Below are positions 4,673-14,834 of a stretch of DNA of 64,000 nucleotides, piece after piece (position 1 is the stretch's first letter; every line of letters starts with the position of its first letter). The notes under the pieces are model-generated. The model ran no database searches. It had not been told where the DNA came from and saw only the letters and a list, made by a program, of their open reading frames with translations. The translations under genes and the position numbers were made by a program. This stretch comes from Methylocystis sp. Sn-Cys (GTDB lineage Bacteria; Pseudomonadota; Alphaproteobacteria; Rhizobiales; Beijerinckiaceae): assembly GCF_016745395.1 (NCBI RefSeq), contig NZ_JAERVJ010000003.1, positions 381,293-445,292 of the forward strand. Direction: 5' to 3'.

Positions 4673-5179
4673 ATGAAACGCTTGCACGTGCATGTCTCCG
4701 TTGACGACCTTGCGGCGTCCATCCGCTTTTACAGCGCGCTTTTCGGCTCCGAGCCGACAGTCGCGAAACCTGACTACGCCAAATGGATGATTGATGATCC
4801 GCGCGTAAACTTTGCGATTTCGGCGCGCGGCGGAAAGGTGGGCGTCGATCATCTCGGGATTCAGGTCGAGACGCCTGAAGAGTTGAAGGAAGTCTATGGC
4901 CGCCTGCAACGGGCCGAGCGGCCTGTGCTGGAAGAGAACACGACAACCTGCTGCTATGCCGAGTCCGAAAAAGCGTGGACCTCGGACCCGCAAGGGCTTT
5001 TGTGGGAGTCGTTTCTGACCACCGGCGAAAGCACAGTCTTTGGCGATGATACGAGGCTCGCGGGATTTCGCACCAGCGGCGGGAAGGCGGCGCCTTCGCC
5101 CTGCTGCGGCTCGAAACCTGCGCCTGTCGTTGAAGCCGCTTGTTGCTCTGGCGCGGCGCGCCACGATGCGGAGGCGTGA
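4673..5179 (+). CDS. arsI: ArsI/CadI-family dioxygenase (C-As lyase-like)
   Basis: A 168-residue vicinal-oxygen-chelate fold protein. Visible features are the N-terminal strand HVHVSVDDLAASIRFYSALFG, His60 in GVDHLGIQVE, the thiol pair Cys93-Cys94 in TTTCCYAES, and Glu112 in LLWESF. These match the iron ligands and As-binding Cys pair of ArsI, which uses O2 to demethylate trivalent organoarsenicals such as MAs(III). The last ~45 residues hold two more Cys pairs (PCCGS, ACCSG), possibly extra metalloid ligands. It is second in the operon. CadI-type proteins are very similar, so the true substrate is not certain. Confidence 0.82.
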   Translation: MKRLHVHVSVDDLAASIRFYSALFGSEPTVAKPDYAKWMIDDPRVNFAISARGGKVGVDHLGIQVETPEELKEVYGRLQRAERPVLEENTTTCCYAESEKAWTSDPQGLLWESFLTTGESTVFGDDTRLAGFRTSGGKAAPSPCCGSKPAPVVEAACCSGAARHDAEA

Positions 5180-5181
5180 AG

Positions 5182-5604
5182 GTGTCGGTCACGATCTATC
5201 ATAACCCCGCCTGCGGCACGTCGCGCAACACGCTGGCGATGATCCGCCAAAGCGGCGAGGAGCCAATCGTCATCGAATATCTGAAAGACCCGCCGACGCG
5301 CGCGCAGCTCGTCGAGTTGCTCAAAGCCATGGGCATTTCCGCGCGCGAGCTGCTGCGGCAGAAGGGAACGCCTTATGAGGCGCTCGGCCTTGCCGATCCC
5401 AAATGGACGGAAGACGAGCTGATCGGCTTCATGCTCGAACACCCGATCCTCATCAATCGGCCGATCGTCGTGACGCCGAAGGGCGCGCGCCTCTGCCGCC
5501 CCTCCGAGGCGGTGCTCGATATTTTGCCCAATCCGGACATTGGCGAATTCACCAAGGAAGATGGCGAAGTCGTCATCGGCAAGACTGTTCAACCTCAATC
5601 CTGA
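5182..5604 (+). CDS. arsC: Glutaredoxin-type arsenate reductase
   Basis: A 140-residue ArsC of the GSH/glutaredoxin-dependent class, reducing As(V) to As(III). It begins TIYHNPACGTSRNTL, with the catalytic Cys in the NPACGTSRN motif, and has the conserved block RPIVVTPKGARLCRPSE that supplies arginines for oxyanion binding. Length matches the family (~140). I chose GTG 5182, with GAGG at 5171-5174 about seven bases upstream; GTG 5176 overlaps the arsI stop but would have no spacing to that site. It lies in the ars operon, so product arsenite can pass to ArsD/ArsA. Confidence 0.9.
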   Translation: MSVTIYHNPACGTSRNTLAMIRQSGEEPIVIEYLKDPPTRAQLVELLKAMGISARELLRQKGTPYEALGLADPKWTEDELIGFMLEHPILINRPIVVTPKGARLCRPSEAVLDILPNPDIGEFTKEDGEVVIGKTVQPQS

Positions 5605-5614
5605 AAGGACTTCC

Positions 5615-5974
5615 ATGACAACCATTCACGTTTTCGATCCCGCCCTTTGTTGCAGCACCGGCGTTTGCGGCGTCGAAGCCGATCAGGCGCTTATCACTTT
5701 CGCAGCGGATGTCGATTGGGCGAAAAAGAACGGCGCGCAAATCGAGCGCTTCAATCTCGCCCAGCAACCCATGGCTTTTGCCGACAACGCCACGGTGAAA
5801 GGCTTTCTTGAGCGCTCGGGGCAGGAGGCGCTGCCGCTGATACTCGTCAACGGCGATATTGCGCTTGCCGGACGCTATCCCAGTCGCGCCGAGCTGGCGC
5901 GCTGGGCGGGCGTCAAGGAAGCCGCCGAAACCGCACAGGGCTCGTGCTGTGGTGGCAAGACCTCCTGCTGCTGA
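5615..5974 (+). CDS. arsD: Arsenite metallochaperone ArsD
   Basis: A 119-residue ArsD. It has the N-terminal As(III) site Cys12-Cys13-Cys18 in DPALCCSTGVCG and two C-terminal vicinal Cys pairs (SCCGG, SCC). ArsD passes As(III) to the ArsA ATPase and is a weak repressor in some operons. GAAAGGA at about 5603-5609 is a good Shine-Dalgarno for ATG 5615. arsA follows after nine bases, the usual arsDA order. Confidence 0.93.
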   Translation: MTTIHVFDPALCCSTGVCGVEADQALITFAADVDWAKKNGAQIERFNLAQQPMAFADNATVKGFLERSGQEALPLILVNGDIALAGRYPSRAELARWAGVKEAAETAQGSCCGGKTSCC

Positions 5975-5983
5975 GATGACGCA

Positions 5984-7744
5984 ATGAAATTCCTCGACAG
6001 CGCGCCGCGTTTCCTCTTCTTCACCGGCAAGGGTGGGGTCGGCAAAACCTCGCTGGCCTGCGCCACGGCGATCCGGCTCGCCGAAGCGGGACGCCGGGTG
6101 CTGTTGGTCAGCACCGATCCGGCCTCGAATGTCGGCCAGGTTTTCGGGGTTTCTATCGGAAACAAAATCACCCCGATCAGCGACGTTCCCCGGCTGTTTG
6201 CCCTTGAGATCGACCCGGAGGCGGCGGCGCAAGCCTATCGCGACCGCATCGTCGGCCCGGTACGCGGCAAACTGCCGGAGACCGTGGTCAAAGGCATTGA
6301 GGAACAGCTTTCGGGAGCCTGCACGACGGAAATCGCCGCCTTCGACGAATTCACGGCGCTGCTGACTGATTCCGAGATCGCCTCGGCTTATGATCACGTT
6401 GTTTTCGATACCGCGCCAACCGGCCACACCATCCGCCTGCTGCAACTGCCCGTCGCCTGGTCCGGCTTCCTTGAGGCGGGAAAAGGCGACGCCTCGTGCC
6501 TCGGGCCGCTGGCAGGACTCGAAAAACAGCGCGCGCAATACAATGCCGCCGTGCAGGCGCTCGCGGACGGGCGACGCAGCCGTCTTATCCTCGTTGCCCG
6601 CGCCCAGAATTCAGCGCTACGCGAAGCGGCGCGCACGCATGGCGAGCTGGCGGCCATCGGCCTCACCCAGCAATTCCTGATCATCAATGGGCTGTTGCCC
6701 GACGCGGAAGCGGCGCTCGATCCGCTCGCCAAGGCGATTTATAGACGTGAGCAAGCGGCCTTGGCCGCGATGCCGGACGAACTGCGCGCCTTGTCCCGCG
6801 ATGATGTGCCGTTGAAGCCGTTCAACCTCGTCGGCCTCGCTGCCCTGCGCCAGCTCCTTGTTGAAACCGCGCCTCAGCCGGACGCGGCGGTGGGGGAGCC
6901 GGTCGAGCTCCGTGCGCCAAGCCTTTCCGATCTCATCGATGACATTGCCGCCGAAGGCCATGGGCTGGTCATGCTGATGGGGAAGGGCGGCGTCGGCAAG
7001 ACCGCACTGGCGGCGGCGGTCGCCGTCGAGCTGGCGCGGCGCGGGCTGCCGGTTCACCTCACAACCTCCGATCCTGCCGCACATCTCACCGAGACGCTGC
7101 GCGGCTCCATGGCGCATCTGACAGTCAGCCGTATCGATCCACACGGCGAAACGGAGCGCTATCGGCAGGAAGTGTTGCGGACGAAAGGGGCGCATCTCGA
7201 CGCCCAAGGGCGCGCGTTGCTCGAGGAGGATTTGCGCTCGCCCTGCACTGAAGAAATCGCGGTCTTTCAGGCCTTCTCGCGCGTCATTCGCGAGGCGGGC
7301 GAGAAATTCGTGGTCATGGACACCGCGCCGACCGGCCATACGCTGCTGCTGCTGGATGCAACGGGAGCTTATCACCGCGAGGTCGCACGCATGCTCGACG
7401 CCAAAGGCGCGCATTACACGACCCCGATGATGCAGCTTCAGGACCCGAAGCGGACGAAGGTCCTTCTTGTCACTTTGGCGGAGACAACGCCCGTCCTCGA
7501 AGCCGCTAACCTGCAAGCTGATCTGCGGCGCGCGGGGATCGAGCCGTGGGCATGGGTCATCAATAACAGCGTGGCGGCGGCGCGCCCGCGCGCGCCCCTC
7601 TTACGCAAGCGCGCTCAAAATGAGCTGGCCGAAGTGGAGAAGGTGGCGACGGTCCATGCCCGCCGCTACGCCGCCGTGCCGCTGCTCGAGGAAGAACCCG
7701 TCGGCGTCGAACGCCTTCTGAAACTGGCCGACCACGATCCTTGA
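5984..7744 (+). CDS. arsA: Arsenite-stimulated pump ATPase ArsA
   Basis: A 586-residue tandem ATPase with A1 and A2 halves. Each half has a P-loop (GKGGVGKTS near residue 15; GKGGVGKTA near 337) and a DTAPTGHT signal. The metalloid-site cysteines of the family are visible: GACTTEIAAFDEF and ASCLGP in A1, SPCTEEIAVFQAF in A2. ArsA powers an ArsB arsenite channel at the inner membrane after loading by ArsD. No arsB or acr3 gene follows: after a 116-base gap the next feature is a tRNA on the other strand. The pump must be encoded elsewhere or be absent. Confidence 0.95.
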   Translation: MKFLDSAPRFLFFTGKGGVGKTSLACATAIRLAEAGRRVLLVSTDPASNVGQVFGVSIGNKITPISDVPRLFALEIDPEAAAQAYRDRIVGPVRGKLPETVVKGIEEQLSGACTTEIAAFDEFTALLTDSEIASAYDHVVFDTAPTGHTIRLLQLPVAWSGFLEAGKGDASCLGPLAGLEKQRAQYNAAVQALADGRRSRLILVARAQNSALREAARTHGELAAIGLTQQFLIINGLLPDAEAALDPLAKAIYRREQAALAAMPDELRALSRDDVPLKPFNLVGLAALRQLLVETAPQPDAAVGEPVELRAPSLSDLIDDIAAEGHGLVMLMGKGGVGKTALAAAVAVELARRGLPVHLTTSDPAAHLTETLRGSMAHLTVSRIDPHGETERYRQEVLRTKGAHLDAQGRALLEEDLRSPCTEEIAVFQAFSRVIREAGEKFVVMDTAPTGHTLLLLDATGAYHREVARMLDAKGAHYTTPMMQLQDPKRTKVLLVTLAETTPVLEAANLQADLRRAGIEPWAWVINNSVAAARPRAPLLRKRAQNELAEVEKVATVHARRYAAVPLLEEEPVGVERLLKLADHDP

Positions 7745-9047: not shown

Positions 9048-10334
9048 TTAGAGCGCAGCGCCAAGCTGGAATTTCGGGATCACCGGACCGCCGATCTCCA
9101 CCTGCTTACGCTCGCCCGACGGGCTGAAGAGGAAGAGGAGGCCGCCGAACTGGCTGTCCGTGTCGTAGGCCAGATCCGACAGACGCTCGACGTCGAAGCG
9201 GGCGTCCTGCACGGTGACGACCACATTCTTGGTCTCGCCGGGCTGGATCGGCGTCGAGTCGTCGAGCGACAGGCCGCGATCCGCCAACAGATAGTCGGGG
9301 AAGTCGGGACGGCTGGTGAACACGTCGGGGTTGAGGAAGCGCAGACCCGCCGTGGTGAACTCGCCGATCCGCAGCGGCTCCTTGCCATTGTTGGTGATGC
9401 GGAGGTTCACGGTCAGCTCGCGGCCCGGCACCTTGTAGGAGCCGCCCGAATAATGCGCCGTAACGGTGTCCTGTCCGAGGTAGAGCGGCGAGATGCCCGT
9501 GAGCAGACCAGCCTGCATCGGCAGCGTGCGCGGGAACTGGCTGTTGGCTTGCGCATAGAAGAAGAGCAGCGCGAGCATCGAGCCGGCGAGCCACAGACCG
9601 CCGAAGCGCTTGTCCGCCGTCGTGATGATCTCGTTCTTCTTACCGGCCGCAACCTGCCAACCGCGGACGATGATGCCCTTCTGCATGAACCAGTAGAGGA
9701 TCCACACAGCCGCAGCGCCCATCCACAGGAAGTGGTAAGCGTACGTCCAGTTGATGCCGTAGGATTCGAGGTCGATCGTCGAGCCGTCGAGGAGCGTCAC
9801 CGGATTGGTGAAGTCCTTCATGTCGCCCTTGATCTCGATCCACTGGCCGGGGCCGACGATCGGACCGCCGTCCTTCACATTGACCTGGACGTGGACGTGG
9901 AAGCGGCCGGGACGGCGCGCCTTCAGGACGATTTTGTAGTCATAGTCCTGACCGACATCCAGCGAGAAGGTGCGCGGCACCGGCACTTCGCCGACGAAGG
10001 CGCTCTTGCGGATCAACACCGGGCCGGGTTCGCCGACGTTGAGGAAGGCTTCCTGCGGCTTCGCGACGGCCTGCGGCCAGCCGGAGAAGACGTGGACCTT
10101 GCCGGTGAGCTCCATCTCTTCATTGACGTTCAACGTCGTCTTCGACCACTTCACGTCATACCAGTTGAGCGTGCGCATGCGCAGGAAGGCCTGCTGCGAG
10201 CGTTCGCCATGCGCCGCGGCCGGCGTCGCGGCGAAGGTCGTGGCGGCGACGATCGCAGCCGCGCCGACGGCGAGCAGACGGCCTGCGCGGCCCGACGCCG
10301 TTCTTGCCAGTTTCTGGAAGAAAGATTGTTTCAT
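9048..10334 (-). CDS. pmoB: Particulate methane monooxygenase subunit B
   Basis: A 428-residue PmoB. A signal peptide (about residues 1-41, ending TPAAA) leaves His42 at or near the mature N-terminus. With His146 and His148 (HVHV) this forms the PmoB copper site; the 104-residue spacing matches His33/137/139 of the Methylococcus enzyme. Two membrane helices (about 186-207 and 234-255) join the two periplasmic cupredoxin-like domains. It is the last gene of pmoCAB, 69 bases after pmoA, with AGGGAG upstream. The product is the soluble-domain subunit of the copper enzyme that oxidises CH4 to methanol in intracytoplasmic membranes. Confidence 0.97.
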   Translation of the reverse strand: MKQSFFQKLARTASGRAGRLLAVGAAAIVAATTFAATPAAAHGERSQQAFLRMRTLNWYDVKWSKTTLNVNEEMELTGKVHVFSGWPQAVAKPQEAFLNVGEPGPVLIRKSAFVGEVPVPRTFSLDVGQDYDYKIVLKARRPGRFHVHVQVNVKDGGPIVGPGQWIEIKGDMKDFTNPVTLLDGSTIDLESYGINWTYAYHFLWMGAAAVWILYWFMQKGIIVRGWQVAAGKKNEIITTADKRFGGLWLAGSMLALLFFYAQANSQFPRTLPMQAGLLTGISPLYLGQDTVTAHYSGGSYKVPGRELTVNLRITNNGKEPLRIGEFTTAGLRFLNPDVFTSRPDFPDYLLADRGLSLDDSTPIQPGETKNVVVTVQDARFDVERLSDLAYDTDSQFGGLLFLFSPSGERKQVEIGGPVIPKFQLGAAL

Positions 10335-10403: not shown

Positions 10404-11174
10404 TTAGATGTCGTCGTTCTCGAGATACTTCGTCGTGGAGAACCAGCCGCCGACCTTCCACCAGAGGAAGTAGACGAGCATGGAGACGAAGCCCGAGAAG
10501 AAGGCCGCGACCGGCACGACGTCCTTACCGAAGGTGCGCAGCGTGCCGCGCTCGATCATGCGGATGTATTCCGGCGTGCCCGTGCGGACGTAGTTGAAGC
10601 CGATGAGATCCGCGAGCGTCAGCAGAACGCCGTCGACCTCGGTGGCCTGGTGGAACTGCGCCAGAACCGGCCAGTTGCTCGGATAGAACAACAGACCCCA
10701 GCCCATCGCGCCGAGCACCGCCGTGACGATCCAGCTCCCCGAGAGCAGCAGGATCACGTCGAGCCAGAAGCCCATCGGGATCAGCGCGGACGGGAAGACG
10801 AGATTGATCGGGAAGAAGGTCCAACCCCAGAAGTTGTCGTAGCGGTTGATCCATTCGCCGACGAGCAGCGCAAAGCAGGCGACCGTCGCGCCGAAGGGCA
10901 GGCGGAACTTCTGCCAGAAGAAGGACTGCGCGGCGGCGGCGAAGCACATGGCGACAATCGGCGCCACGGTCGGCCACATACGGCGATCCTTGAAGTCGAT
11001 CCAGAAATCCCAGTCGCCGGCCAGCAGCATGTAGTGGATGTGGAACGAGCCGAGCAGCACCAGGAAAAGGACGAGAAGCAGGATCCAGTCGGTCAGCTTG
11101 ACGCAGCCGAGGAATTCCTCCTTCGACGCCCAGGCCCGGCCTGCCGCCGGAGCCGTTTCATTCGAAATAGACAT
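10404..11174 (-). CDS. pmoA: Particulate methane monooxygenase subunit A, probably pmoA2-type
   Basis: A 256-residue polytopic membrane protein with the PmoA core DWDFWIDFKDRRMWPT, LPFGATVACFALLVGEWINRY, NFWGWTFFPINLVFPSAL and PEYIRMIERGTLRTFGKDVVPVAAFFSGF. It belongs to the methane, not ammonia, monooxygenase type. Compared with the type II PmoA1 I remember (DWKDRRMWPTVVPILG, HFMLTAGDW), this one has DFKDRRMWPTVAPIV and HYMLLAGDW and an extended N-terminus. These differences point to the PmoA2 lineage reported for pMMO2. The subtype is an inference; membership in PmoA is certain. It is 214 bases after pmoC, with a hairpin-rich spacer. Confidence 0.96.
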   Translation of the reverse strand: MSISNETAPAAGRAWASKEEFLGCVKLTDWILLLVLFLVLLGSFHIHYMLLAGDWDFWIDFKDRRMWPTVAPIVAMCFAAAAQSFFWQKFRLPFGATVACFALLVGEWINRYDNFWGWTFFPINLVFPSALIPMGFWLDVILLLSGSWIVTAVLGAMGWGLLFYPSNWPVLAQFHQATEVDGVLLTLADLIGFNYVRTGTPEYIRMIERGTLRTFGKDVVPVAAFFSGFVSMLVYFLWWKVGGWFSTTKYLENDDI

Positions 11175-11388: not shown

Positions 11389-12159
11389 TCAGATCGCGAG
11401 CACGTCCTTTTCGTACTCCTTGCTGAGCTCGATCACGCGACCGAGGATCTGCAGCACGGTGCCGAACATGGCGAGGCCGAACCAGCCGAAGAACACGAAG
11501 CCCCAATGCAGCGGCGCCGTGAACAGCTCTTCCATGAACCAGAAGGTGTGGCCCCATTCATTCAGGCCGACGTTCGGGAAGATCATGAACGGACCGGCGA
11601 AGAACAGCAGGAAGGCCAGCGAGATGCGGTTCGCGAACTGCGGAATGCGCGTGCGGCCGTACATGAAGGCGCCCCAGCCCGCGATGATGTAGATCGGGTA
11701 GCTGAGGTAGAACTCCAGGATGTGCGACGGCGTGAAGTCCGTGTCGCGAATGACGGTCTGATGCCAGGTGCCGTCCTGCTCGGTGAAGTAGCTCGCGCCC
11801 CAGTAAACCGTGAAGGCGTAGACGAGCAGCCAGCCGATCAGCGTGATGAGGCGACGCATTTCTTCGCGCGGCGCGACAGCGTTGATGTTGCGGTCGCGGG
11901 TCTTCCAAAGATAGCCGCCGACCGCACAGAAGGCGATGAACTCGAGCGGCAGCTCGGTCCACATGATGTTGAGCCAGTAGGTCTGAAACTCCGGCGCGAA
12001 AGAATCGAGGCCGGCTTTCCAGCCGAAATACTGCTCATAGATTCGGATGCCGACGTAAAAGGTGCCCAGCGCCGCCATGGCGAGATAGGCCGGACGGTAA
12101 TTGACGATCGAGTCCGTCTGCGCCTTGGCCGCTACCCCTGCTTTTTCTGTTAGTGACAT
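11389..12159 (-). CDS. pmoC: Particulate methane monooxygenase subunit C
   Basis: A 256-residue membrane protein, first gene of pmoCAB. The metal-binding triad of PmoC is intact: Asp129, His133 and His146 (in EQDGTWHQ and FTPSHILEF). The +4 and +13 spacing equals Asp156/His160/His173 of Methylococcus PmoC. Around it are EFYLSYPIYIIAGWGAF and NEWGHTFWFMEE, conserved in the family. The start has GGAGGAGAGG at 12161-12170. PmoC is now regarded as housing a copper site needed for methane oxidation. The 444-base region upstream holds the operon control sequences. Confidence 0.97.
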   Translation of the reverse strand: MSLTEKAGVAAKAQTDSIVNYRPAYLAMAALGTFYVGIRIYEQYFGWKAGLDSFAPEFQTYWLNIMWTELPLEFIAFCAVGGYLWKTRDRNINAVAPREEMRRLITLIGWLLVYAFTVYWGASYFTEQDGTWHQTVIRDTDFTPSHILEFYLSYPIYIIAGWGAFMYGRTRIPQFANRISLAFLLFFAGPFMIFPNVGLNEWGHTFWFMEELFTAPLHWGFVFFGWFGLAMFGTVLQILGRVIELSKEYEKDVLAI

Positions 12160-12209
12160 TCCTCTCCTCCAGTTTTCAGTTTGAACTGGGTTCGCGCACC
12201 CACGCGAAG

Positions 12210-12319
12210 CTTTCGCGCCGTTTCTGGGCGAAAGATTCCCGCGAAGTTGCGTGTCCTTTCATGTCTATCAGGCATACTTTCAATGCTTTCTAAGCACTTT
12301 AGGCTATGGAGAAAGCATT
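12210..12319 (-). promoter_or_regulatory. pmoC upstream region with two inverted repeats
   Basis: Two dyads lie upstream of pmoC. Arms CTTTCGC (12210-12216) and GCGAAAG (12228-12234) would form a leader hairpin 50-75 bases before the start codon. Arms AATGCTTTCT (12282-12291) and AGAAAGCATT (12310-12319) are perfect 10-bp repeats spaced by 18 bases, 122-160 bases before the start, like an operator for a dimeric regulator. Between 12400 and 12540 the sequence is much more A+T-rich than the window average. I could not fix a convincing -35/-10 pair for pmoC by eye. Confidence 0.5.
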
Positions 12320-12527
12320 CCTGACAGGGTCGAAAGCTATCATGGACGGGATGAGCAACGTCAATTGCCCAGTTGATGCCAAAACTGCGTCAATTGAGCG
12401 CATTGCACTGAATTGTATCAAATACATGTATTTTAAACTGAGATTCTTGCGCGTGTATTTAAATATGATACTGATGTATATTATGCTGATACTTGTGAAT
12501 CGCGACTTTCTGCCGCACCAAAGTCTG

Positions 12528-12557
12528 TTGATTTGAAGCTTCGTCCGACGATTATGT
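12528..12557 (+). promoter_or_regulatory. Possible sigma-70 promoter of the 37-residue membrane protein gene
   Basis: TTGATT (12528-12533) and TTATGT (12552-12557) are separated by 18 bases and lie 46 bases before the start codon at 12604. The match to consensus is moderate. It is offered because the small gene must have its own promoter: pmoC runs away from it and no gene precedes it on this strand. Confidence 0.35.
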
Positions 12558-12603
12558 GCGCTTGGCTGAACAACGGCCTTAGAAACTAGGGAGGCGCCAA
12601 GCA

Positions 12604-12717
12604 ATGAAAACATTTCACTCCGCCAATGAACTCGGCTGGGTCGCGTTCTGGATCGGATTCATCATCTTCCTGTTCGCCGTCTTCATCCCGACGGTGAACC
12701 GCATGCTCAATCTCTGA
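12604..12717 (+). CDS. 37-residue single-span membrane protein divergent from pmoCAB
   Basis: A short complete gene: ATG 12604, stop TGA 12717, with GGGAGG 10-15 bases upstream and a strong intrinsic terminator 33 bases downstream. The product is 37 residues: a polar N-terminus (MKTFHSANELG), one hydrophobic helix (about residues 12-31, VAFWIGFIIFLFAVFIPTV) and a short Arg/Asn tail. Dedicated signals at both ends argue for a real, well-expressed monocistronic gene. Its position, back to back with pmoC, suggests a small partner of the pMMO membrane complex. Structures of alphaproteobacterial pMMO have shown an unassigned helix near PmoC, and this protein is a candidate of the right size. That assignment is inference. 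Confidence 0.72.
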   Translation: MKTFHSANELGWVAFWIGFIIFLFAVFIPTVNRMLNL

Positions 12718-12750
12718 GCGCGCAAACCAACCCTTTCTCCCAGCAATTTT

Positions 12751-12785
12751 GTCCCGGCTCGAGAAATCGAGTCGGGACATTTTTG
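12751..12785 (+). terminator. Intrinsic terminator of the 37-residue protein gene
   Basis: A 12-bp stem (12751-12762 with 12767-12778, one G-U pair) closed by a GAAA tetraloop and followed by ATTTTTG. It is one of the strongest terminators in the window and belongs to the small gene ending at 12717. Confidence 0.9.
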
Positions 12786-13086
12786 TTTGTGCGACGCAAT
12801 GGCGGTAAATGGTCCGGCATTTCAGCGAGAGTCCACTGAATGTAAAAATCGCGCCTGTGGATGAGTCCGGCGTGCGACACTTTGAAGCAGAGCATGTATA
12901 AAATTGTCTCACTGCACAAAAATCGTCGGTTCAACTTTTGAACATTTCTATTTTTGGCAAGAACCCCTTGAATATTCGACATCCGTTCCCGTTGTTGCAG
13001 GGGGCGCGGGTGAGACGCTGGCCCCCCGGTTCTGGCGCGCGGCCCGTCAGGGGCGGAAAATCAAACATTCCCTTAGCTTTGTATTT

Positions 13087-13659
13087 ATGAGAGAAATGAT
13101 GGCCTGGCTTCCGGTTGCCACTCCTGGAGCCGATATCGGAAAAGCCCTAAATCGCTCCGTCAGGCACACGGCCGCCGTTGAAATGTCAGAAAATCACAAG
13201 AATAAACAAAATGTAGACGACGCCATGGATAGTAGAGAAGACAGGCAAAATCTCACGTTGCAGCGCAGGCGGGAAGACGCGCTGCGCTGCCTTCTGGCCC
13301 ATGTGAATCGTGCGCCGACGCGGACGATCGTCGACGAGCTGAAGAAAGATTTGGGCGTCTCCCGCGCGACGGCCTATCGCATGATGAAGTCGTTTCGCAC
13401 CTGCGGCGCCATCGCTCCGTCGTCCGCGCGCTCCGTGGGGCGCCCGAAGGGCACAAAGGGGCTCGATCCCAAGCGCGAGCGCATCATAGAAACGGCTTTG
13501 GCGGCCTTTGTCGCCGAGCCGGAGCGGCCGCGATTTAGCACGCTCGTTCAAGAGATTGCGCGCCAGTGCAAAGAAGAGGCGCTGCCTGTCCCCAATTGGC
13601 GAACGATTCGGGCGCGCCTTCGCGAACTCGAAAATCAGCAGGCCGGCGGCGGCAATTAG
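13087..13659 (+). CDS. HTH protein resembling the N-terminus of TniA/Mu-type transposases
   Basis: About 190 residues from ATG 13087; ATG 13183 and 13225 are alternatives, and none has a good Shine-Dalgarno. The C-terminal part has a helix-turn-helix (DLGVSRATAYRMMKSFRTCG), then GRPKGTKGLDPKRERIIETAL, then FSTLVQEIARQCKEEALPVPNWRTIRARL. This order (HTH, GRPKG linker, second helical DNA-binding part ending in a TIR-arginine motif) is that of the DNA-binding N-terminus of TniA/Mu-like transposases. The catalytic DDE domain is missing; the frame stops at 13659 and noncoding repeats follow. It may be a transposase remnant or a domesticated regulator next to pmoCAB. Confidence 0.5.
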   Translation: MREMMAWLPVATPGADIGKALNRSVRHTAAVEMSENHKNKQNVDDAMDSREDRQNLTLQRRREDALRCLLAHVNRAPTRTIVDELKKDLGVSRATAYRMMKSFRTCGAIAPSSARSVGRPKGTKGLDPKRERIIETALAAFVAEPERPRFSTLVQEIARQCKEEALPVPNWRTIRARLRELENQQAGGGN

Positions 13660-14018: not shown

Positions 14019-14834
14019 TCAATCCGCCGCGAGAATCACATTCTGCGGCGCGAATTGAGCGACGACATTGCCCCCTTCCGAAAGTCCCATCGCTTCGACG
14101 TCCTGTCTCGGCAGGACAGCGGTCATCGTCTTTCCAGAGCCGATGTCGATCAGCAGCTCGCAATTGCGCTCGGCGTCGATGCGGCGCGTGATCACGCCGG
14201 CAAAGCGGTTACGGGCTTCCTTGGGCGTTTCCTGCGGCGCGCTCAATTCGATAAAGGAGGATTTGACCAGAGCGGCGACCTTACGGCCGGGTTTCAAATC
14301 GAGCTCCTCAGTCGCTTCATTGGTGATGATGGCGAGGAGGGTGTGCTCGCCGGAGATCCGCAAAGTGACCTCGACGTCGACGGGCCACTTCTTGATCGAG
14401 ACGACCTCCGCCTGGAAAACATTGCGGGCCGAGATGCGCACCGCGACGCCCCACAGCAGAAAATCCTCCTGCCCGTCGAGGCCCACTTCCGCAATCATCG
14501 AGGAGATGCTCGACAATCTGTCCTCGAGCCTGTGAAAGGTCTCGATCAGCTTGCGGCCCTCGGGCGTCACTTCGGCGCCGCCGCCGCTCTTGCCGCCGGC
14601 CTTCGTAACGAAGGCGGGGCTCGGCAGCAGATTATTGATGGCGGCGACGGCGTCCCACGCCGCTTTGTAGCTGAAGCCGGCAGCCTTGGCCGCCTTGGAA
14701 ATGCTTCCATGCTGCGCAACGGCCTCGAGCACCTTGATTCGGTCCCGCCCGATGAGAAATTTGCCTTCGCTGCGGAGCGCAAGAAGCGCGTCTATCTTTT
14801 TGGCTGTCGTCATCCGTCTCGCGCCCGCTGACAA
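14019..14834 (-). CDS. modE: Molybdate-responsive transcriptional regulator ModE
   Basis: A 271-residue ModE. The N-terminal winged helix contains KVLEAVAQHGSISKAAKAAGFSYKAAWDAVAAINNLLP, the hallmark of ModE, plus GGKSGGGAEVTPEGRKLI. Two MOP/TOBE molybdate-binding repeats follow (ISARNVFQAEVVSIKKWPVDVEVTLRISG about 130-160; TRRIDAERNCELLIDIGSGKTMTAVLPRQDVEAMGL about 215-250). With bound molybdate it would repress Mo uptake genes and adjust Mo-enzyme genes. No modABC lies in the window. ATG 14813 is an alternative start. Confidence 0.92.
   Translation of the reverse strand: MSAGARRMTTAKKIDALLALRSEGKFLIGRDRIKVLEAVAQHGSISKAAKAAGFSYKAAWDAVAAINNLLPSPAFVTKAGGKSGGGAEVTPEGRKLIETFHRLEDRLSSISSMIAEVGLDGQEDFLLWGVAVRISARNVFQAEVVSIKKWPVDVEVTLRISGEHTLLAIITNEATEELDLKPGRKVAALVKSSFIELSAPQETPKEARNRFAGVITRRIDAERNCELLIDIGSGKTMTAVLPRQDVEAMGLSEGGNVVAQFAPQNVILAAD

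Follow-up and report, generated by a model that had tools for sequence, protein, structure and literature searches.

Several small membrane proteins are already known beside enzymes of the kind considered here. CydX (YbgT) of cytochrome bd oxidase is 37 residues long in E. coli and is described as tied to one CydA type (PMC4325964). Archaeal ammonia monooxygenase carries AmoX, AmoY and AmoZ, described as extra small helical membrane subunits (PMC10030591), and PmoD/AmoD is reported to consist of a signal peptide, a periplasmic domain with two conserved cysteines and a C-terminal helix (PMC6189053). For particulate methane monooxygenase (pMMO) itself, the structure from strain Rockwell, 4PHZ, shows an unidentified helix according to a figure legend (PMC8098663). 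The pMMO2 isozyme is credited with low-concentration methane use by Methylocystis and Methylosinus; its high methane affinity comes from the literature on strain SC2, whose set of pmo copies (pmoA1/pmoA2), as given in PMC3794950 and PMC7285482, underlies the pMMO2 typing used below.

Here we describe a very short gene beside a pMMO2 operon of Methylocystis sp. Sn-Cys, found in a 64,000-nucleotide stretch of DNA (the window). What is new is that a small gene tracks one pMMO isozyme, and we regard it as a strong candidate for a small, so far missing component of pMMO2.

A 37-codon gene divergent from pmoC

The features of the locus, in window coordinates, are these:

9048-10334, minus strand: pmoB2 (Pfam PF04744, E 1.6e-141)
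10404-11174, minus strand: pmoA2 (Pfam PF02461, E 1.8e-109; pMMO2 clade)
11389-12159, minus strand: pmoC2 (PmoC, AmoC family; Pfam PF04896, E 6.8e-104)
12160-12603, no strand: 444-bp divergent region separating pmoC from the small gene
12502-12516, plus strand: palindrome GCGAC-N5-GCCGC, RegA/PrrA/ActR/RegR-like, 102 bp upstream of the ATG (alignment of divergent regions)
12589-12594, plus strand: ribosome-binding site GGGAGG, 9-nt spacer
12604-12717, plus strand: small membrane-protein gene, candidate pMMO2 small subunit (translation, conservation, pN/pS, AlphaFold2)
12750-12779, plus strand: intrinsic terminator-like hairpin, 13 pairs including one G-T, GAAA loop, then TTTTTG
13225-13659, plus strand: helix-turn-helix ORF (probable start; 13180 also possible), related to the helix-turn-helix part of a split Mu-type transposase, which we take to be TniA-type

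The small gene runs from ATG to TGA over 37 codons and translates to MKTFHSANELGWVAFWIGFIIFLFAVFIPTVNRMLNL. The initial annotation, which singled it out as an unlisted gene, was right about its length, its GGGAGG site, its one hydrophobic helix and the 444 bp that separate it from pmoC; the GAAA-loop terminator that it described is also there, but the stem has the 13 pairs listed above instead of 12 bp, and the hairpin begins 32 rather than 33 bases past the stop. AlphaFold2 models the peptide as one helix over residues 2-35, with a mean pLDDT of 90.6. Among 1031 start-to-stop frames of 25-60 residues (both strands of the window, nested starts counted apart), this gene is the only one that pairs a strong hydrophobic stretch (17-residue Kyte-Doolittle mean of at least 2.4) with a Shine-Dalgarno word. 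The hairpin is the single terminator-like site in a scan of 12100-13300, against a shuffle mean of 1.8; because that number is no more than shuffles give, the weight of the hairpin lies in its stem length and its conservation. A sigma-70 promoter scan of 12100-13300 gave no match, and Rfam at 12000-13400 gave five matches up to E 1, each under its gathering score.

Searching 298 genomes of the family with tblastn gave 20 strong matches to the peptide (E 4e-21 to 3e-8), all within two genera, and the products of the pmoC genes divergent from all 20 are 79-100% identical to the window PmoC. Weak matches in 52 further genomes, with best E from 0.007 to 0.92, were set aside as noise, nearly all of them lying inside long ORFs and two in frames with a stop. 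Aligned over 35-38 residues, 21 distinct peptides share 13 positions that are invariant across the two genera (H5, E9, W12, V13, W16, F24, F27-I28-P29, V31-N32 and L35-N36); there is no invariant cysteine, no invariant methionine past the start and a single invariant histidine. These residues show no significant bias to one side of the helix (conservation moment p = 0.44), so they demonstrate no binding face. Across 24 distinct nucleotide versions, drawn from 44 loci of which many overlap, pS is 0.56 and pN 0.18 (pN/pS 0.32; 276 pairs), and changes at codon positions one, two and three number 2391, 1111 and 3906, with third positions the richest. Because relatives thus keep the protein better than the DNA, we conclude from these comparisons that the gene is under purifying selection at the protein level.

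The arrangement around the gene is shared as well. Twenty-four loci were compared, namely the 26 peptide loci L001-L020 and L064-L069 minus L002 (same species as L001) and L005 (a cut contig with the peptide of L006). The divergent placement is the same in all 24, with 444-601 bp to pmoC, and each has an ATG and a purine-rich Shine-Dalgarno word, which in L011 is merely GGGG. In 18 of the 24 the hairpin 3' of the stop is better than expected from 60 base-shuffles (p <= 0.05); the six failures all belong to genus g42.

Linkage of the small gene to pMMO2

The pmoCAB operon of the window is of the pMMO2 isozyme, as typed by its relatives. Its PmoA is 83-84% identical to the pmoA2 product of an SC2-like genome and to the PmoA of Methylocystis sp. 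B8, and 66-70% identical to pMMO1. In the SC2-like genome, which has two pmoA1 and one pmoA2, the peptide stands beside the pmoA2-type operon; contigs of Methylocystis sp. B8 and Methylosinus sporium DSM 17706, each listed with one pMMO2 in Table 1 of PMC7285482, carry it too. We type the window operon as pMMO2 on these PmoA identities, on the place of its PmoA in the SC2-type pmoA2 clade (support 0.96) and on these three carriers of the peptide. This identity had been missed in the initial annotation.

A PmoA-family match is present in 41 of the 298 family genomes: 20 of the window type, all with the peptide next to pmoC, and 21 with other pmo genes only, none of which has it (PmoA identity 60-70% or lower, save in G172 and G238, whose PmoA fragments are unclassified). 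At the level of the genus, PmoA matches occur in 31 of 39 genomes and are lacking in eight; the 16 with window-type PmoA (17 copies, 83-100% identity) are exactly the 16 with the peptide (17 copies), and it is found in none of the 15 with other PmoA types only (69-70% or 46-53%). Nine peptide-bearing genomes of genus g42 were typed by PmoA identity (84-86%) in seven cases, four of these through matching named contigs, and by PmoC alone in G161 and G187. Among 64 named PmoA loci, several of whose pMMO2 members are the same contigs as loci in the genome sample, all 15 at 83% identity or more have the peptide; the other 49 have none, a thin test in that a PmoC match occurs in 20 of them and at least 700 bp upstream of PmoC in 13.

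In a tree of 53 distinct PmoA sequences, the 21 peptide-bearing tips form one clade with support 0.96. Since presence amounts to one clade, for which one gain suffices, the linkage counts are not phylogenetically independent, and the Fisher values of 4e-12 and 3e-9 for the linkage, which ignore common descent, are descriptive only. Within that limit, the small gene accompanies pMMO2 and none of the other pmo types in the sample. One genome, G307, has two pMMO2-type operons (C77 and C242), and both are accompanied by a copy of the small gene (81% and 73% identity to the window copy).

A profile of the 21 peptides, run against 153 loci (pMMO1, pxm-like, gammaproteobacterial and Nitrospira operons among them), found nothing below E 0.8 outside pMMO2. 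In 17 further stretches the best non-pMMO2 peptide match had E 6.8; eight of these stretches are from genus g40, probably Methylocapsa-like by name, and two of the eight come without the region upstream of pmoC. A class-level profile search of 385 genomes gave a convincing match in the source genome alone (5e-23), with 13 others at 0.007-0.05. When the 2.5 kb upstream of pmoC were scanned blindly for small hydrophobic ORFs shared between loci, the peptide came up in 20 of 20 pMMO2 loci; upstream of pmoC1 the widest cluster covered 3 of 16 loci under a strict hydropathy cut and 6 of 16 under a looser one, one pMMO1 locus and several pMMO2 loci spanning under 2.5 kb. Downstream of pmoB1, small hydrophobic ORFs from nine loci formed a cluster that looked like a pMMO1 counterpart; we take it to be pmoD, its L140 member being the C-terminal end of that gene.

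Pfam, NCBIfam, PADLOC and PHROGs hold no credible family match for the peptide. OppC_N (Pfam) appears below threshold in 15 of the 21 members, with E values no better than 0.0016 (the window peptide has E 0.013 and 15.8 bits against a cut-off of 23.9), and was rejected as noise. Plasmids gave no peptide match, viral contigs gave none to one degenerate pattern of the C-terminal motif, and no published work naming the gene was found among the open-access titles and abstracts listed.

A short, hydrophobic frame followed by a terminator-like hairpin is also what a leader peptide, a type I toxin or a chance ORF with no role in pMMO2 would look like. The pN/pS ratio, the 13 invariant residues, the strict linkage and the lack of a credible match in the four family collections all speak against this explanation, which we consider highly improbable; its chance or artefact form is ruled out by selection and linkage. 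The same two lines of evidence strongly support the original claim of a genuine small membrane-protein gene belonging with pmoCAB, and we conclude from them that this very short gene for a 37-residue protein is real.

The initial annotation further suggested that the peptide may account for the unassigned transmembrane helix next to PmoC in structures of alphaproteobacterial pMMO. The presence of such a helix in 4PHZ (PMC8098663) fits in kind, both being single helices, the one in the pMMO protomer; 4PHZ, however, is a pMMO1 from a strain tabulated without pMMO2. By phmmer against the window PmoA, the four closest solved PmoA chains (3CHX, 4PHZ, 7S4M/9CL5 and 3RFR) score 393.5-401 bits, 16 pMMO1 loci 394-408 and 21 pMMO2 loci 505-580; because their scores fall in the pMMO1 range, the solved alphaproteobacterial enzymes are of pMMO1 type, and no pMMO2-type PmoA was found among the solved chains. 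Both ATCC 49242 (Rockwell, the source of 4PHZ) and OB3b are entered without pMMO2 in the table of PMC7285482, and no copy of the peptide was found in the 21 sampled pmo genomes lacking pMMO2. Solved structures gave no credible match to the peptide or its profile. The identification is therefore disfavoured and, unless a diverged relative exists, we judge it very unlikely, the least probable of the explanations weighed here.

The divergent region and the neighbouring genes

When the divergent regions are aligned, a block GCGAC-N5-GNCGC stands out upstream of the small gene. The slightly wider pattern GCGRC-N5-GNCGC, which we take to equal the RegA/PrrA/ActR/RegR consensus, is present in all 24 pMMO2 intergenic regions, where shuffles would give 0.5, a comparison made partly after the fact, with a pattern chosen after seeing the alignment and on related loci. 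Its first base lies 102-135 bp before the ATG in 23 of the 24; in L011, the exception, the exact pattern is 51 bp away, with a one-mismatch version, of a kind expected there by chance, farther upstream. In pMMO1 upstream regions it was found in 1 of 20 (expected 0.4). Because the window as a whole is not enriched for the pattern (12 matches against 22 expected), the argument for a RegA-like site lies in its conserved place. Published RegR boxes have a similar look (PMC4064962, Table 1), and the source genome (G000) has one match to the ActR/PrrA model, at C14:472536-473054, whose 318.6 bits exceed the curated cut-off of 250. The palindrome thus hints at redox control of pMMO2, which a RegA-type regulator might exert.

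Small single-helix regulators are common, and the peptide could be one of them, acting, once pMMO2 is turned on, on a sensor kinase, a protease or a transporter; the RegA/ActR-like site in the divergent region and the ActR/PrrA orthologue in the genome would suit such a role. Its tie to one isozyme and not to the sister isozymes is, however, more than a general regulator needs, and we hold this explanation to be improbable.

Beyond the small gene, the helix-turn-helix ORF is a conserved neighbour of pMMO2: 18 of 21 loci have it, and one of the three without it extends less than 1 kb past pmoC on the upstream side. In 11 of the 21, but not in the window, it is followed by a distinct ORF that matches Mu-transpos_C; the match was checked on the L150 member, where 4740-6371 is the split transposase region. 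The split transposase is perhaps a domesticated regulator, or perhaps a trace of how pMMO2 moved. Farther out, a ModE-like regulator was seen by eye at 14019-14834 on the minus strand, and also in L002 and L003; none was seen in 20 pMMO2 loci, several of them short on that side.

The source genome, an assembly of 20 contigs, has a single PmoA, that of the window, with two further PmoC matches (61% and 52%) on other contigs. A genome of the same species has two pMMO1-type PmoA copies as well, and the pMMO1 copies of the source genome may have been lost in assembly.

Proposed role and comparison with known small subunits

We propose that the small protein is a single-helix subunit or stabiliser specific to the pMMO2 isozyme, CydX-like in kind, and put the probability of this reading at about 0.6. 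The gene, divergent from pmoCAB2, would be transcribed from its own promoter under the conserved redox-regulator-type site and would end at its own terminator. Its translated product of 35-38 residues would insert as one transmembrane helix, in a presumed orientation, and might pack through some of the invariant residues against the membrane part of PmoC2/PmoA2. Such packing could stabilise the pMMO2 protomer or a copper-bearing state, as CydX does for cytochrome bd, with a possible effect on activity or affinity. What is seen in small subunits of membrane enzymes in general is seen here: a predicted single helix, protein-level selection and co-inheritance with the enzyme. A fixed stoichiometry with pMMO2 is not assured, because the gene is divergent and outside the operon. 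A stronger version would make pMMO2 a four-subunit enzyme, the helix being a constitutive, pMMO2-only fourth subunit that tunes PmoC/PmoA, is needed for low-methane kinetics and has its synthesis set by a RegBA-type redox regulator; we put this forward tentatively, as a doubtful extension.

The separate divergent unit would also suit a factor that acts transiently on pMMO2, in assembly, insertion or copper loading, instead of staying in the finished enzyme, perhaps one replacing PmoD of pMMO1 in some role: pmoD adjoins pMMO1 in 11 of 20 fetched loci and pMMO2 in 0 of 21 (20 of these 21 span more than 3 kb past pmoB), and H5 and E9, both invariant and placed close to the edge of the membrane, could contact metal. 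Yet past the start the peptide offers one invariant histidine and no invariant cysteine or methionine, and it is too short for a folded periplasmic copper domain such as that described for PmoD (PMC6189053). We consider a factor of this kind unlikely and retain a CydX-like subunit or stabiliser as the preferred reading.

A small protein that accompanies pMMO2 and was not found with its sister isozymes would in any case provide a single, deletable gene with which to ask what sets pMMO2 apart, and if it does belong to the enzyme as a subunit, any PmoCAB2 produced or modelled without it would be incomplete.

Among known systems, PmoD/AmoD resembles the small protein in being an accessory membrane-anchored protein encoded beside pmoCAB in alphaproteobacterial methanotrophs, as described in PMC6189053. 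It differs in size and build: PmoD has 200 residues in L140, a signal peptide and a copper-binding domain (solved in part as 6CPD), whereas the small peptide has 37 residues and no conserved cysteine.

With CydX the likeness is one of design, in that both are single hydrophobic helices, linked to one enzyme type and easily missed by annotation (as described for CydX in PMC4325964 and PMC6005532). No sequence relation was seen, the CydX/YbgT family models of Pfam and NCBIfam giving no match; the small gene adjoins pmoC, not cydAB, and is divergent from pmoCAB2 instead of lying inside the operon, and its association with pMMO2 is a proposal.

AmoX, AmoY and AmoZ differ in being backed by cross-linking and gels (PMC10030591), and AmoY and AmoZ are larger (9.6 and 12.8 kDa) and said in that paper to be unique to archaea. 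They are alike in belonging to a copper membrane monooxygenase and in being linked to it by gene neighbourhood in some lineages (PMC10030591). Should the small protein prove to be a subunit of pMMO2, it would become a candidate for a bacterial equivalent, in kind, of these extra small subunits of archaeal ammonia monooxygenase.
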